Source of the DNA: Natrinema sp. DC36
GTDB lineage: Archaea; Halobacteriota; Halobacteria; Halobacteriales; Natrialbaceae
NCBI RefSeq assembly: GCF_020405225.1
Contig: NZ_CP084472.1
Coordinates: forward strand, 3,224,001-3,288,000
Direction of reading: 5' to 3'
Length of the DNA: 64,000 nucleotides
Shown here: piece after piece, positions 12,271 through 28,144 of the stretch
How positions within the stretch are numbered: position 1 is the first letter of the stretch
Layout of the letters: every line of letters begins with the position of its first letter
Made by a program: the position numbers and the translations under genes
The notes under the pieces: generated by a model
Told to the model about the DNA's origin: nothing
The model's database searches: none
Seen by the model: the letters and a program-made list of their open reading frames with translations, nothing else

Positions 12271-13452
12271 TCAAAACCCGAATATCGGGATGAACCGGAA
12301 GGTGAGATAGGCGCCGATCGTCGAAATCGCTGGGACGACGTTCTGCATGAGGATCACGCGAGCGGTCGTCGAGGGGTCGAACAGATCCGACGCCTGCGGG
12401 ATGTCCTCGGGCTCTTCCTCGCCGATCTGGGGGGAGCGTTCGCCCTCCTCCTCGGCGGTCAGCGCACCGACCGAGACGCGCGTTTCCTCGCCGGCTCTGA
12501 CTCCCGACAGGGTCGTCGTTCGGGTGGCTCGTCCCCAGCCCAGCCCGACGATACTCATCGTCGCGATGACGACGAAGCTCGCGGGGATGCCGATCGACGA
12601 GAGTCCCACGACGATTCCCGAACTGATCACGGCGACGACGATCGCCGCCGTCAGCGGGAGGTGCGTAATATCGTTACCGAGCGTGTCGAGGGTGCGGCGG
12701 GCGATGGTAAAGCAGCCGACCGCGACCGCCGCCGAACCGATCAGGATCAGCGGCACCATAGCGACGTCGCCGGTACCGTAGATCGGCGCGATCGCGTTGG
12801 CGATGTTGCTCGTTCCCGATGCGAAGCCCATCAGACAACCGATTCCGACGACGACCATCGCACCCGTGATTTCCCGGCGGGTGGCGTCAGCGCCGAACTG
12901 GAGCCGTGGGGCGAGCCCCGAGCGGTCGATCGTGACCATCGGTCGTCCCTCTTCATTCCCTTCGATGGCGACCCAGGCGTTGATTCGGGGGTAGAAGTAC
13001 CGCCCGACGACGCCCGCGACCCAGAAGCCGGTGATCGGGGCCACGACCCACCAGATGACGATCTCGCCCAGCACCTCGAGGTCGAGTTCACCGGTCGCCA
13101 TTCCCAGGGCGGCGATCGCGCCGACCGCGGTCATCGACGTCGAGGCGGGGACGCCGGCGTAGTTGCCGACGAACAGCGCGCCGCCGATGAAGAAGAGCAC
13201 GGCGACGTTCGATCGCATCGTGAAGATCGACGTGTCGGTGACGAGGTCGTTGCCGAGCGTATCGACGACCTGCGGACCGATGGTATAGGCCCCGACGAAG
13301 AAGAATACCGACATCAGTCCGGCGGCCATCACCTTCGTGATCACGTTCGCGCCGACGGCCGGCCCGAACGCGGGCCCGGTCGTCGAGCCGCCGATGTTGA
13401 ACCCGACAAAGACGGCGACGAGAATCCCGACGATCAGCAGTACTTCCGGCAC
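12271..13452 (-). CDS. PiT-family inorganic phosphate (anion) transporter, copy 1
   Basis: The 393-residue protein has about ten hydrophobic helices. Both inverted PiT half-repeats are present: VGFNIGGSTTGPAFGPAVGANVITK at the N-terminus and MGFASGTSNIANAIAPIYG in the second half. The family imports phosphate, or in some members sulphate, with H+ or Na+. It starts with GTG at 13452; no in-frame ATG precedes it. A cytoplasmic loop near the C-terminus (EEEGERSPQIGEEEPED) resembles that of the paralogue at 14889-16055, so the two are probably an old duplication. Confidence 0.9.
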   Translation of the reverse strand: MPEVLLIVGILVAVFVGFNIGGSTTGPAFGPAVGANVITKVMAAGLMSVFFFVGAYTIGPQVVDTLGNDLVTDTSIFTMRSNVAVLFFIGGALFVGNYAGVPASTSMTAVGAIAALGMATGELDLEVLGEIVIWWVVAPITGFWVAGVVGRYFYPRINAWVAIEGNEEGRPMVTIDRSGLAPRLQFGADATRREITGAMVVVGIGCLMGFASGTSNIANAIAPIYGTGDVAMVPLILIGSAAVAVGCFTIARRTLDTLGNDITHLPLTAAIVVAVISSGIVVGLSSIGIPASFVVIATMSIVGLGWGRATRTTTLSGVRAGEETRVSVGALTAEEEGERSPQIGEEEPEDIPQASDLFDPSTTARVILMQNVVPAISTIGAYLTFRFIPIFGF

Positions 13453-13779
13453 GTTCGGTAGTCATGCGATCCGACCCTAAAAACGCGCTTATTTGTGGCA
13501 GTGTCGGCGAGCTACCAGTTAGTCCCCACTCGATCGAGAGTTGACGATACGCTACTCGTGCCTGCTCGAGCCGAAGCAATCGGAGCGAAAACGCCGACGA
13601 CGATAATGGTGGTTCGTCTCGACCGCGATCCAAAAGGACTTCCCGAATCGGACCCTGTCCTATAATATCATGTTATCACACGCGTACTCAGTGCAGTCGG
13701 GCGGCGATCCGAAGAACGGACGACAGTCCTCGCGATCGGAGAGCACGTCGATCGATGGGGTTGCGACAGTTGGTCGGCT
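13453..13779. other. divergent intergenic region
   Basis: This 327-base region lies between the PiT gene and the repeat-protein gene. It contains TTTTTAGGG near 13480 (possible PiT promoter on the minus strand) and an AT-rich CTATAATATCATG at about 13660, the best TATA candidate for the plus-strand gene, which would leave a leader of about 90 bases. No other gene is seen. Confidence 0.45.
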
Positions 13780-14421
13780 ATGAGACCGGCGCGCATCGAC
13801 GCGATCATCGACTTCGCGTACGGCGGGTTGATTCTGCTCGCGGTCGTCCTCATCGCGACGCTCGATATTCGGGTCGGGTTGACGTTCGGGCTGGGGGTCT
13901 TCTCCTCGTACGTCCTCCACGTCGTCTGGAAGATGGCCCGGTTCGATCCCGACTGGATGACGTCGACCGTCCAGGAAACCGTCGAGAAGTCGGTCGAGCG
14001 GTCGGTCGAGGAAACGGTCGGCGACACCGTCGAGAAACAGGTCGAAGAAACGGTCGATAAGACAGTCGGCGACACCGTCGAGCAAACCGTCAGTGAGACC
14101 GTCGAAGAGACGGTGGATCAGACAGTCGGTGAAACCGTCGAAAAAACGGTGAGTGAAACCGTCGAAGAAACGGTTGAAGAAACGGTCGGTGAAACCGTCA
14201 AAGAAACGGTCGACGAAACGGTCAAAGAAACAGTCGATGAGACGGTCGGTGAAACCGTCGAGGAGACGGTCGAAGAAACGGTCGGCGACCAACTCGAGGA
14301 GGTACAGGCCAAGGTCGAGTCCGTCGACGAACGCGTCGACCGTCGGCCTCGAGAGGACGAAGTCGAAGAACTGCTCGAGGAATCGGACGACGGTGACCGG
14401 GGCGACCGTACCGAGAACTGA
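13780..14421 (+). CDS. membrane-anchored protein of tandem four-residue repeats (xTVx)
   Basis: The 213-residue protein begins with two hydrophobic helices (about 10-25 and 31-47), then residues 63-170 are almost entirely a four-residue repeat of the type E-T-V-x (VEET, VGDT, VEQT, VKET). A charged C-terminus follows (VQAKVESVDERVD and an acidic tail). Valine recurs every fourth residue, so the segment should be one long helix with a slowly turning hydrophobic stripe, like apolipoprotein or right-handed coiled-coil segments. The DNA is correspondingly a 12-base tandem repeat. No function is known; it sits divergently from one PiT gene and convergently to the stress-protein gene. Confidence 0.75.
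   Translation: MRPARIDAIIDFAYGGLILLAVVLIATLDIRVGLTFGLGVFSSYVLHVVWKMARFDPDWMTSTVQETVEKSVERSVEETVGDTVEKQVEETVDKTVGDTVEQTVSETVEETVDQTVGETVEKTVSETVEETVEETVGETVKETVDETVKETVDETVGETVEETVEETVGDQLEEVQAKVESVDERVDRRPREDEVEELLEESDDGDRGDRTEN
13966..14280 (+). repeat. 12-base tandem coding repeat
   Basis: The coding sequence of the repeat protein is built from about 25 variants of GTCGAAGAAACG and GTCGGTGAAACC. The period of 12 bases matches the four-residue protein repeat. The synonymous and conservative changes between units suggest selection on the protein. The array also creates a long mirror frame on the other strand, which I take as a shadow. Confidence 0.85.
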
Positions 14422-14441
14422 GCGGTTCCGAACTATCCCGT

Positions 14442-14888
14442 TCACCGAACGACCACGACTGGAACCGGTGACCGACGAACGACCGTTTCCGCGACGTCCC
14501 CGACGAACAGTCGTTCCGAAACGGTTCCACCGTATGTCCCGATCACGACCGTCTCATAGTCGTCAGCGCGGTTGATGATCGTACGAACCGGATGGCCGAG
14601 TTCGACAATGGTCTCGAGGTCCGCGAGACCGTTGGTGTCCGCCGGAGTTCGCGCGTGATCGAAGACCGGCTGTGCGAGTTCCTGCGCTTCGTCCTCGAGA
14701 TCGTCGGCGAGCGCGAAGCCGACTGCCTCGCCCCACATCAACGATGGTTCGCCTACGACGGTCAGGACGGTTATATCGGCGTCCGGGTAGGCCTCGAGGG
14801 TGTACTCGAGTGCACGTTCGCTCATCTCCGAACCGTTCAGCGGAACGAGAACGCGACCGACGACGACAGAGAGAATAATCCCGAGGAG
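14442..14888 (-). CDS. universal stress protein (UspA domain) without a standard start codon
   Basis: The UspA domain is complete when read from 14888. RVLVPLNGSEMSERALEY forms strand 1 and its loop, LTVVGEPSLMW follows, and the ATP loop GTYGGTVSERLFVG and final PVPVVVVR are present. The first ATG (14825) falls after strand 1, so starting there would remove an essential strand. Between that ATG and the TAA of the upstream PiT gene (14889-14891, in the same frame) there is no ATG, GTG or TTG, only ATT codons at 14877-14879 and 14874-14876. The protein therefore either starts at ATT, is a truncated form, or was once fused to the PiT protein. Confidence 0.7.
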   Translation of the reverse strand, partial: LLGIILSVVVGRVLVPLNGSEMSERALEYTLEAYPDADITVLTVVGEPSLMWGEAVGFALADDLEDEAQELAQPVFDHARTPADTNGLADLETIVELGHPVRTIINRADDYETVVIGTYGGTVSERLFVGDVAETVVRRSPVPVVVVR

Positions 14889-16055
14889 TTACCCGACGAA
14901 TGGAACTGCGACGAAGAAGCCGTAGGCGAGAATCGTCGACATCGACGGGCCGATGATCCACATCGAGACGTACTTCATGATGGCCCGCGGGTTGAACAGA
15001 TCGCCCGCATTCAGGACCTCCTCGGACTCTTCCTCGCCGATCCGCGTGACCGGGGCCTCTGGCTCCGCCTTCAGTGCACCCATCGACATCTCCGCGTCGA
15101 CCTGACCGCGAACGGCGTCTCGAGCCGTGACGGGACGGGTGGCTCGCCCCCAGCCCAGTCCGACGATCGTCATCACCGACGCCATCACGAGGCTGATCGG
15201 AATCCCGGCCGCCGAGAGCAGGGTCGTAATCGTCGAGGCGGTGATCATGACGACGAGAGCCGCGAGTAACGGGATATCGCTGAGTTCGCTGCCGACGGAC
15301 TCCATCGTCCGGCGGGCGATAGTAAAGCCGCCCAGCCCGATCGCGACGGTTGCGATGATAATCGCGTTATCGGCCCCGAGCGCGCCGCTGCTGACCAGTG
15401 GCGCAACTGCGTTCGGGACGTTGCTCGCACCGGCGCTGAACGCCATGTAACAGCCGATAACGAGGACGACTATCGTCCCGACGAGTTCCTGACCGGTCGT
15501 GTTCGGACCGAGGCCGATCGACGGAAGCGATCCGGTCCGGTCGACGGTGAGCAACGACCCCTCGGTCGCCGAGATCTCGAACCGTCGATTGAGTTCCGGG
15601 TAGATGTACCGGCCGACGAACGCGCCGATCCAGAGGGCGAGGATCGGCGTGACGATCCACCACGAGATGATCCAACCGATCGTCTCGAAGTCGAGCGTTC
15701 CCGTGGCCAGCCCCAGTCCCGCGATCGCCCCGACGGTCGTCATCGACGTCGGGACGGGGACGCCGAAGATGTTCGCGATAAGAATCCCCAGTCCGATGAA
15801 GAAGAGAACGGCGACGCCCGCCGCGAGCGAGATTTCGATCGCGATGATGTCGCCGCTGAGCGTGTCCATCACGTTTCTGCCGACGGTCCAGCCGCCGAGA
15901 AAGACGAAGAAGGTCATCAGTCCGGCCGCGGACGCCTTGCTGAGGAGACCGGCACCCACAGCGGGCCCCCACGCGATCCCGGTCGACGAGCCGCCGATAT
16001 TGAATCCGACGAAAATCGAGGCGACGATTCCCACCAGTAGAACGGTTTCGACCAT
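14889..16055 (-). CDS. PiT-family inorganic phosphate (anion) transporter, copy 2
   Basis: The 388-residue membrane protein carries the PiT repeats VGFNIGGSSTGIAWGPAVGAG and MAFSAGASNVPNAVAPLV. Its C-terminal loop (GALKAEPEAPVTRIGEEESEE) parallels that of the copy at 12271-13452. I start at the ATG at 16055 (MVETVLLVGIVASIFVGF), which aligns with the paralogue; the frame open upstream to 16217 encodes no helix. The TAA is followed in frame by a UspA domain, suggesting a split transporter-UspA fusion. The transported anion, presumably phosphate, cannot be told from sequence. Confidence 0.88.
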   Translation of the reverse strand: MVETVLLVGIVASIFVGFNIGGSSTGIAWGPAVGAGLLSKASAAGLMTFFVFLGGWTVGRNVMDTLSGDIIAIEISLAAGVAVLFFIGLGILIANIFGVPVPTSMTTVGAIAGLGLATGTLDFETIGWIISWWIVTPILALWIGAFVGRYIYPELNRRFEISATEGSLLTVDRTGSLPSIGLGPNTTGQELVGTIVVLVIGCYMAFSAGASNVPNAVAPLVSSGALGADNAIIIATVAIGLGGFTIARRTMESVGSELSDIPLLAALVVMITASTITTLLSAAGIPISLVMASVMTIVGLGWGRATRPVTARDAVRGQVDAEMSMGALKAEPEAPVTRIGEEESEEVLNAGDLFNPRAIMKYVSMWIIGPSMSTILAYGFFVAVPFVG

Positions 16056-16217
16056 CCAGCGGTAGTAAAAGGATGCTCCTGAAAGAAGTACTGAAACTGA
16101 TCGCAGCAAGAGCGCCGCGATACTGCAACCCGGCGACACCCTCGCGCGACTATCGGCGCGAACGCCTCGGCCGATAGTTCGACTGACGGCTCGCGTCACG
16201 ACGGTCGGCGGACCCAC

Positions 16218-20864: not shown

Positions 20865-21572
20865 CTACGGACGGCGCAGTGTCCCCTGCTCTTCGACGAA
20901 CTCGCCGTTCTCGACGGCGTGATCGACGACCGCTTCGACCTCGTGGCGCTCGAGGTCGTAGGCACCCGCGGCGAGCTCCTCGACGGCGCTTCGCGTCATG
21001 GGAAACTCGCGGTTCCGAAGGAGCCGGATGACCTTTCGGTAGGTCGCAGGTGGGCGGGCCGACGCGGACGGCGAGTCCTCGTCGCTGGATCCGACGGCCG
21101 ACTCCGATCGCTCGTCGGCGTCGCCTTCGGTCGCGGTACCGGACGCGTTCGCCGTCTCGCCGTCATCCGGTGTCTCGCCCTCATCCGGTGTCTCGCCCTC
21201 ATCCACCGTTTCGGTGCCGGTCGGACGCTCGTCGCGCTCGAACGTGATCCCCTCGTCGCGAGTCGCGGCGGTGTTCGGCTCGGTTTCGGTGCTGTTCGGA
21301 TCGTCTCCGGCGGCGAGATTCGAACCGTCTACAGTCGACTCGTCGTCGGTCGTCTCGAGGGCGTCGGCGGCCCCATCGGCGGCCTCGACAGCCGTCTCGG
21401 CCCCGGCGCGGGCGAGCAGCGGTTCGAGCAGCGTCTCGAGTCGCTCGCTGCAGTCGGAACAGCAGACGACGCGGCGCTGTTCGGCCTCCGTCGGCTCGAG
21501 TTCGGGCGGGACGATTTCGAACGCGCCGACGGCGTCGTCGGCACAGAAGTCACAGTTCCGGAGTGCGCGCAT
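20865..21572 (-). CDS. haloarchaeal zinc-ribbon/acidic-linker protein
   Basis: The 235-residue protein begins MRALRNCDFCADDAVGAFE, and with CCSDC at about 39-43 this gives a CxxC...CxxC zinc-binding pair. A disordered central part rich in Asp, Glu, Thr and Gly includes a DEGETPDEGETPD repeat. The C-terminal 65 residues (TYRKVIRLLRNREFPMTRSAVEEL to the end) look like a small helical, perhaps winged-helix, domain. It is of unknown function, possibly a nucleic-acid-binding or adaptor protein. Confidence 0.7.
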   Translation of the reverse strand: MRALRNCDFCADDAVGAFEIVPPELEPTEAEQRRVVCCSDCSERLETLLEPLLARAGAETAVEAADGAADALETTDDESTVDGSNLAAGDDPNSTETEPNTAATRDEGITFERDERPTGTETVDEGETPDEGETPDDGETANASGTATEGDADERSESAVGSSDEDSPSASARPPATYRKVIRLLRNREFPMTRSAVEELAAGAYDLERHEVEAVVDHAVENGEFVEEQGTLRRP

Positions 21573-21690
21573 ACTGTCGGCAATCACGGAGAACGTAAAA
21601 AATCATCCGTCAGACGAACAGTCACGCGAGCGTATTGCTCTCCGCGCTCGAGACGAACCGCTGACAGAGTGCGAAACCGATCACCGGGCA

Positions 21691-26950: not shown

Positions 26951-28144
26951 ATGGTCGATATCGCCACGTTCGGCACCTTCGCCGTGGCCGCAGTTGCGAG
27001 TCTCTTTATGGCCTGGGCGATCGGTGCCGGCTCGAGCGGCTCGACGCCGTTCGCGCCGGCCGTCGGCGCGAACGCGATTTCGGTGATGCGAGCCGGTTTT
27101 CTCGTCGGATTGCTCGGTTTCGCCGGTGCAGTCCTGCAGGGCGCGAACGTCTCCGAGGCGGTCGGGACCGGACTGATCGGCGGCGTGACGCTGTCGTCGC
27201 TCGCCGCCACGATCGCTCTGCTGATCGCGGCCGGCCTGGTGGCGATCGGGATCTTCACGGGGTATCCGATAGCGACGGCGTTTACCGTCACGGGGGCGGT
27301 CATCGGGACCGGGCTCGCCATGGGCGGCGACCCCGCGTGGGCGAAGTACACCGAGATCGCCACGCTGTGGGTGCTGACGCCGTTCGTCGGCGGTGGTATC
27401 GCCTACGCGGTCGCTCGGGCCCTCCGCGCCGAAGCGGTCGCTGAAGAGTACCTCATCATCGTGCTGGCCGCCGTCGTCGGCGCGATCGTCGCCAACATCG
27501 AGTTCGCGATCCTCGGCTCGCCGGGAGCCGGCGGGGCGTCGATCGCGCAGGTCGCGGGCGGTTCGCTCCCCGGACCGGCGATCGCCGGGACCGCGGCTGC
27601 GACGCTCATCATCGCGGCGGTCTGGGCGGGGGCAATCGCGCTGGATCTCAACAACGGGACCGAACGCGGCGAGCGACACTTCCTGCTCATCCTCGGCGGA
27701 CTCGTCGCGTTCTCCGCCGGCGGCAGTCAGGTCGGGCTGGCGATCGGGCCGCTGATCCCCCTCTCGGACGAACTCGAGCTCCCGCTGATCGCGATGCTCG
27801 TCGGCGGCGGCTTCGGGCTCCTGGTCGGATCGTGGACCGGCGCACCGCGAATGATCAAGGCGATCTCGCAGGACTACTCCTCGCTCGGGCCGCGACGCTC
27901 GATCGCCGCGCTCATCCCCTCCTTTATCATCGCGCAGGCCGCGGTCCTCTACGGTATCCCGGTCTCGTTCAACGAGATCATCGTCAGCGCGATCATCGGG
28001 AGCGGCTACGCCGCGGCCGGCGCTGGCGGCGGCGTCAGCCCCCGCAAAATGGGCTTTACCGTACTCGCGTGGATCGGTTCGCTCGCCGGCGCGATCGCCG
28101 TCTCCTACGTCGCCTACGTCGCTATCGCTGCGGTCTTGCTCTGA
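26951..28144 (+). CDS. PiT-family inorganic phosphate transporter, copy 3
   Basis: The 397-residue protein has about ten helices. The N-terminal PiT repeat is MAWAIGAGSSGSTPFAPAVGANAI and the C-terminal counterpart is SFNEIIVSAIIGSGYAAAGAGGGVSPRKMG. It differs clearly from the two copies at 12-16 kb (no acidic loop before the last helix) and represents another PiT subgroup. No PhoU-like gene is adjacent. Symport of phosphate with Na+ or H+ is the family role. Confidence 0.92.
   Translation: MVDIATFGTFAVAAVASLFMAWAIGAGSSGSTPFAPAVGANAISVMRAGFLVGLLGFAGAVLQGANVSEAVGTGLIGGVTLSSLAATIALLIAAGLVAIGIFTGYPIATAFTVTGAVIGTGLAMGGDPAWAKYTEIATLWVLTPFVGGGIAYAVARALRAEAVAEEYLIIVLAAVVGAIVANIEFAILGSPGAGGASIAQVAGGSLPGPAIAGTAAATLIIAAVWAGAIALDLNNGTERGERHFLLILGGLVAFSAGGSQVGLAIGPLIPLSDELELPLIAMLVGGGFGLLVGSWTGAPRMIKAISQDYSSLGPRRSIAALIPSFIIAQAAVLYGIPVSFNEIIVSAIIGSGYAAAGAGGGVSPRKMGFTVLAWIGSLAGAIAVSYVAYVAIAAVLL

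Follow-up and report, generated by a model that had tools for sequence, protein, structure and literature searches.

The main finding of this study is that a gene in the window (by which we mean the whole stretch of 64,000 nucleotides of DNA that was analysed) encodes a putative membrane protein whose tail carries a hydrophobic residue at exactly every fourth position, and whose relatives are often encoded next to PiT-type phosphate transporters. Judged by its conservation, it is a real gene and belongs to a conserved family. The product is a small, predicted membrane protein of salt-loving archaea for which we found no earlier description: searches of the open literature yielded no paper on the family, nor on haloarchaeal membrane proteins made of tetrapeptide repeats. 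Its general kind is that of a membrane protein with a repeat tail, and the exact period of 4.0 is the surprising part. The features of the locus are collected in Table 1.

Table 1. Coordinates in the window of the repeat gene, its parts and its neighbours.
Feature	Position	Strand	Details
Repeat gene, 213 aa	13780..14421	+	From the first base of ATG to the last base of the stop
N-terminal domain, residues 1-60	13780..13959	+	Two hydrophobic helices and the near-invariant WKMARFDP-W-M motif (alignment, AlphaFold)
Array of four-residue units	13963..14298	+	Core V/L at residues 64-172, exact period 4
Heptad-spaced segment	14293..14337	+	L172, V175, V179, V182, V186 (3-4-3-4); same ending recurs in relatives
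RRPRED-EVEELLEES segment	14338..14385	+	Conserved in PiT-linked relatives (alignment)
PHO4/PiT phosphate transporter	12271..13452	-	Divergent neighbour; PF01384, E 8.6e-37
Intergenic stretch	13453..13779	.	Between the divergent PHO4 gene and the repeat gene; presumed site of both promoters
Universal stress protein (Usp)	14442..14825	-	Convergent neighbour; PF00582, E 1.6e-14
Second PHO4/PiT phosphate transporter	14889..16217	-	Same strand as and upstream of Usp; PF01384, E 2.1e-37

The 64-residue N-terminal domain matched 113 of the 125 genomes of the window's family, and a 12-row profile of it found the domain in 270 of the 391 genomes sampled from the window's class (69 of 86 genera), a class that corresponds to the haloarchaea, judged by its named relatives. 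A phylum-wide sample contained the domain in 59 of 392 genomes, and no match lay outside the order of the window. Among named genomes, where 79 loci were retained out of 179 stretches encoding a relative, matches came from Natrinema, Natrialba, Natronorubrum, Halorubrum, Halosimplex, Halolamina, Halorientalis and others. Two copies of the repeat gene are present in the window's own genome, and eight plasmid records matched the domain, six of which annotate the protein, as hypothetical. Among 12 diverse copies, 25 of the 64 columns are invariant. The window protein shows the two parts by which we define the family, a 64-residue two-helix domain ending in WKMARFDP-W-M (here WKMARFDPDWM) and a tail with a four-spaced core. 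Reading-frame loss in relatives, which the earlier note had named as evidence that would count against the gene, was looked for, and there was no stop inside the 64-residue domain among the matches listed.

Neither Pfam, NCBIfam nor the PDB holds a curated model or chain that covers the N-terminal domain, and profiles of this domain and of the whole family retrieved no chain from the PDB. No match to the domain was obtained in the phage collection, and a phage origin of the gene was rejected on this ground. The repeat region gave weak matches, which we do not retain. DUF445 (PF04286) matched residues 62-138 of the window protein (E 2.7e-4), and membership is rejected because the score of 21.4 bits compares with a cut-off of 33.8, the match covers the repeat region only, and two other scanned copies had none. 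The weak matches in PHROGs, NCBIfam and the PDB, the best PDB one being a TASX-type peptide labelled TLP-4 (E 0.008), are low-complexity matches.

The two N-terminal helices are predicted to span the membrane, as proposed earlier: their sequence is hydrophobic, and AlphaFold places helices at residues 3-27 and 30-54 of the window protein (block pLDDT 63-81). The array that follows had been described as about 27 four-residue repeats with valine at every fourth residue for more than 100 residues, and this description is accurate. Indeed, 28 core residues (27 Val, 1 Leu) form an unbroken row with a spacing of exactly four, whereas over 20,000 shuffles of the tail the longest row of four-spaced V, I, L or M averaged 3.1 and reached 9 at most. 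The units are mostly of the type (E/K/D/Q)-T-V-(E/G/D/S), with V in 27 and T in 24 of the 28, and with E at position -2 in 17 and at +1 in 13. At the DNA level, TRF reports the array at 14003-14288 with periods of 24, 36 and 60. Pairwise comparison of the 12-base units gave a pS of 0.56 and a pN of 0.26, in line with the synonymous variation noted before; for the core codon pN was 0.036, and this codon is under purifying selection between units. After the heptad-spaced segment, the protein closes with a charged end, RRPREDEVEELLEES.

Copy-number variation, which had been suggested as a check, is strong. We collected 216 entries, removed 10 that were cut off by the end of a locus and merged duplicates to obtain 163 unique proteins. 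Their length ranges from 114 to 347 aa and their longest period-4 run from 4 to 56 (median 20), this run being at least 20 in 84 of them. Neighbouring V/I/L residues are four apart in 4,351 of 5,169 cases and three apart in 457, and valine accounts for 2,425 of the 2,524 core residues in a period-4 context. The periodogram peak of the tail is at least 3.9 in 107 of the 163 proteins, at least 3.95 in 83 and at most 3.8 in 3. Some members contain inserted VEDVQTQV units, each of which adds a step of three and so lowers the period of the tail; the overall peak lies between 3.76 and 3.9 in some relatives that mix steps of three and four. Other features recur as well: glycine occupies +1 in 20% of units, F, W, Y, C and H together make up 0.14% of all tails, the 3-4-3-4 ending is also seen in relatives of the window protein, and an RRPR-type motif is present in 105 of the 163 proteins.

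Among the 253 protein pairs with at least 90% identity in the N-terminal domain, the difference in length was a multiple of four in 201, including 82 with no difference, and the remaining differences probably often correspond to units with a step of three. The number of units is fluid and the core is conserved; units therefore come and go while the four-residue spacing is kept. In a Halobaculum plasmid copy (L278), S or Q replaces T at -1 without a change of period, which points to the spacing of the core as the likely target of selection.

The gene neighbourhood, which the earlier note had overlooked together with the heptad-like C-terminal segment, is the chief new result. In the window's family (123 loci, 129 copies), a PHO4 gene lies within 1.5 kb of the repeat gene in 104 copies and a Usp gene in 79. 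PHO4 genes were found on both sides on the opposite strand (52 copies), downstream on the same strand (29), downstream on the opposite strand only (13), upstream on the opposite strand only (5), or upstream on the same strand combined with downstream on the opposite strand (5). In three copies (L151, L154 and L155) the stop of the repeat gene overlaps the PHO4 start as TGATG. All eight plasmid copies have an adjacent PHO4 gene, annotated as an inorganic phosphate transporter in the seven annotated records, so that the two genes remain linked on other replicons. Six PHO4 genes of the window's genome score above the cut-off, and three of them flank its two copies of the repeat gene; the third PHO4 gene of the window (26951-28144, plus strand) has no repeat gene near it, and the partner thus accompanies only some PiT genes.

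The association is not universal. Among the 25 copies without PHO4 inside 1.5 kb, three have flanks shorter than 2.5 kb and one (L099) has a PHO4 gene at about 2 kb, and PHO4 is lacking near whole groups (a second Natrinema group, genus g9 and the named Halorubrum copies), which indicates that the link of the function to PiT is not a strict one. When the named-genome set was taken with five further loci, PHO4 was near in 47 of 87, the Halorubrum copies being without it. Presence or absence across genomes is uninformative here, since PHO4 occurs in 390 of the 391 class genomes. On a tree of the 64-residue domain, the label PiT or none changes 8 times and the arrangement 20 times, counts that are rough because the tree is poorly resolved (6 of 118 inner branches starred), and shared descent accounts for much of the 104/129 association. 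Considered as a link alone, and on the basis of gene order, the family is probably PiT-associated.

As to the structure of the tail, a step of four residues on a helix of 3.63 residues per turn rotates the hydrophobic stripe by 36.7 degrees, that is, 2.75 turns across the window array and one full turn per 9.8 units (39 residues, about 59 A). The stripe drifts, as had been anticipated. The array has a hydrophobic moment of 0.516 at 90 degrees versus 0.012 at 99.2 degrees (straight helix), so the array is not a heptad coil, also as anticipated; at 19/5 the moment is 0.108, at 11/3 (98.2 degrees) 0.047 and at the heptad angle (102.9 degrees) 0.009. We therefore rejected for the array a canonical heptad coiled coil, whose period is 3.5, and the 3-4-3-4 spacing is limited to the short end segment 172-186. 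A right-handed coiled coil of known type (periods 3.67 to 3.8; 11/3, 15/4 or 19/5) does not fit the 4.0 of the window array, and neither does an 11-mer amphipathic helix with a lasting lipid face, given the moment at 98.2 degrees. The single-chain AlphaFold model of the window protein has helices at 57-107 and 119-185 in the tail, and that of a short member from Natrinema gari (L254) has helices at 3-28, 30-55, 57-94 and 100-114, likewise at low confidence (mean pLDDT 63.7). Confidence is low in the window array (block pLDDT 42-58 over residues 81-180; pTM 0.25), so that a helical tail is plausible and disorder is compatible with the model. Glycine at +1 and the many beta-branched residues weaken a helix in the array.

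Three known systems resemble the window protein in part. PhoU-like proteins (DUF47, PitR) are soluble helical bundles and operon partners of bacterial Pit transporters. They are like the family in that both would be encoded with Pit and act on it, and the window protein's family does share the first of these traits (104 of 129 copies within 1.5 kb, and the eight plasmid copies), but the window protein is membrane-anchored, by prediction, and carries an array. Matches to Pfam or NCBIfam up to E 1 included no PhoU or DUF47 profile. S. aureus PitA is reported to show no two-hybrid interaction with other tested proteins, including PitR (PMC11705898). Right-handed coiled coils, such as the YadA stalk (19/5), pentadecads (15/4) and hendecads (11/3), share a core period above 3.63; published work puts the most extreme known coiled-coil period at 3.8 (YadA) and the expected limit near 3.9, with 4.0 outside the accessible range (PMC4786415), whereas the window array keeps a period of exactly 4.0 through 28 core positions and other members through up to 56. 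The 11-mers of perilipin 4 and alpha-synuclein (PMC5889406) likewise form a long repetitive helix rich in T, V and G with a modular number of units; the window tail differs in its period of 4 rather than 11/3, in its acidity and in being joined to two hydrophobic helices, and we found no sequence relation between the two.

We tentatively favor, as possible rather than probable, a reading in which the protein is a membrane-anchored PiT accessory protein with a mostly helical cytoplasmic rod of variable length and a short heptad clamp at its end. The PiT link is well supported by synteny, PHO4 neighbors recurring in several orientations. The N-terminal hairpin would sit in the cytoplasmic membrane beside the PiT transporter, with both ends inside, since R2 and R5 and K51 and R54 flank its helices. 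From there the acidic tail would project as a long cytoplasmic rod, helical for the most part, which may pair with itself through the valine stripe, by strong right-handed winding or as a partly unwound helix, and the heptad segment would hold the paired tails in register. Such a tail could serve to cluster or space the transporter or to regulate it, perhaps together with the neighboring Usp. The number of units would set the reach of the rod, and the variation in tail length suggests that reach, rather than the exact residues, is important.

The same tail could instead be a disordered acidic bristle on a membrane anchor, its length changed by replication slippage, in which length and charge matter and not the fold; it might serve as an entropic spacer, or as an ion or crowding buffer near the transporter. 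The low AlphaFold confidence in the array speaks for this, as do a net charge of -31 over residues 64-176, the fluid copy number and the abundance of the weak helix formers T, V and G. Yet a bristle has no need for a hydrophobic residue at every fourth place over up to 56 units, with core V, I or L kept while codons vary, and the core persists even with S or Q in place of the T at -1, as in the Halobaculum copy. We regard this explanation as doubtful.

Rather unlikely, in our estimate, is that the arrays form an orderly helical assembly whose period is truly 4.0, beyond the accepted coiled-coil limit of about 3.9. It would extend over 100 to 220 residues and act as an adjustable rod on phosphate transporters, perhaps stabilized by molar salt. 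Candidate forms are a right-handed supercoil of very tight winding, a helix so far unwound that each turn takes four residues, and a many-helix filament, in which the drifting stripe would meet a new neighbor every few turns. The unusual bundle that the earlier note had envisaged is possible.

The protein might also have no role for PiT and be a general membrane or envelope protein (for shape, division or mechanical linkage) that has PHO4 next to it by chance, through inheritance of one ancestral neighborhood in many genomes. Halorubrum, one Natrinema group and genus g9 do carry copies without PHO4 nearby, and shared descent together with only 8 PiT/none changes on a weak tree leaves room for such a history. 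Against it, the pair has been kept in several orientations and on several replicons (20 arrangement changes; all eight plasmid copies), and the genes overlap stop to start in three copies; we consider it unlikely.

Very unlikely is an amphipathic helix lying on the inner face of the membrane, comparable to the 11-residue repeats of alpha-synuclein or perilipin 4. The membrane anchor adjoins the tail, and a T-, V- and G-rich composition nearly free of F, W, Y, C and H resembles perilipin 4 (PMC5889406), but the tail is strongly acidic and its moment at 98.2 degrees is 0.047, compared with 0.516 at 90 degrees. With a period of 4.0 instead of 11/3, the hydrophobic side turns away about every 5 units. 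The earlier suggestion that the tail could lie along a membrane is not supported, for the same reasons: the stripe winds right round the helix, leaving no lasting lipid face over the array, and the charge of -31 is unfavorable. Binding of short stretches of the array to a membrane is possible. Finally, the frame could be an artefact of a G+C-rich repeat, the real gene lying in another frame or strand (such as the 261-aa minus-strand ORF at 13660-14445), as long frames are open on both strands and the antisense array resembles the sense one (45% identity), but this reading is refuted by the conservation of the sense N-terminal domain over 69 genera, and six of the eight plasmid records list the sense ORF as a protein.

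Control of PiT-type phosphate uptake in haloarchaea is, to our knowledge, little known. If the tails fold, the 163 unique sequences would be a natural library for probing the limits of alpha-helix winding, and they would exceed the limit predicted in the coiled-coil literature; if they do not, a disordered tail would be under strict selection at every fourth residue, which would likewise call for an explanation. In both cases, the gene order suggests that the PiT phosphate transporters of haloarchaea have a widespread and so far undescribed partner.

Several further observations were made. ORFs antisense to the arrays, which are a hazard for gene callers, include the 261-aa one in the window and others of 863 and 744 aa in L131 and L203. 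Tails of period 4 without PHO4 nearby occur in L203 and other Halorubrum loci, where they are built of KEVEKTVGETVN-type units, in a group of L124, L126, L135, L136, L138-L140, L143, L148, L150 and L152, and in a further group of L137, L141, L144 and L145. The gene order is the same in four Halobaculum plasmids (L273, L276, L278 and L279), where the repeat gene shares its strand with PHO4 and a dolichyl-phosphate hexose transferase gene and a helix-turn-helix gene lies upstream. Elsewhere in the window, an 18-base tandem repeat (21154-21204) lies inside a minus-strand ORF (20865-21587) and encodes an acidic linker of the DEGETP type.
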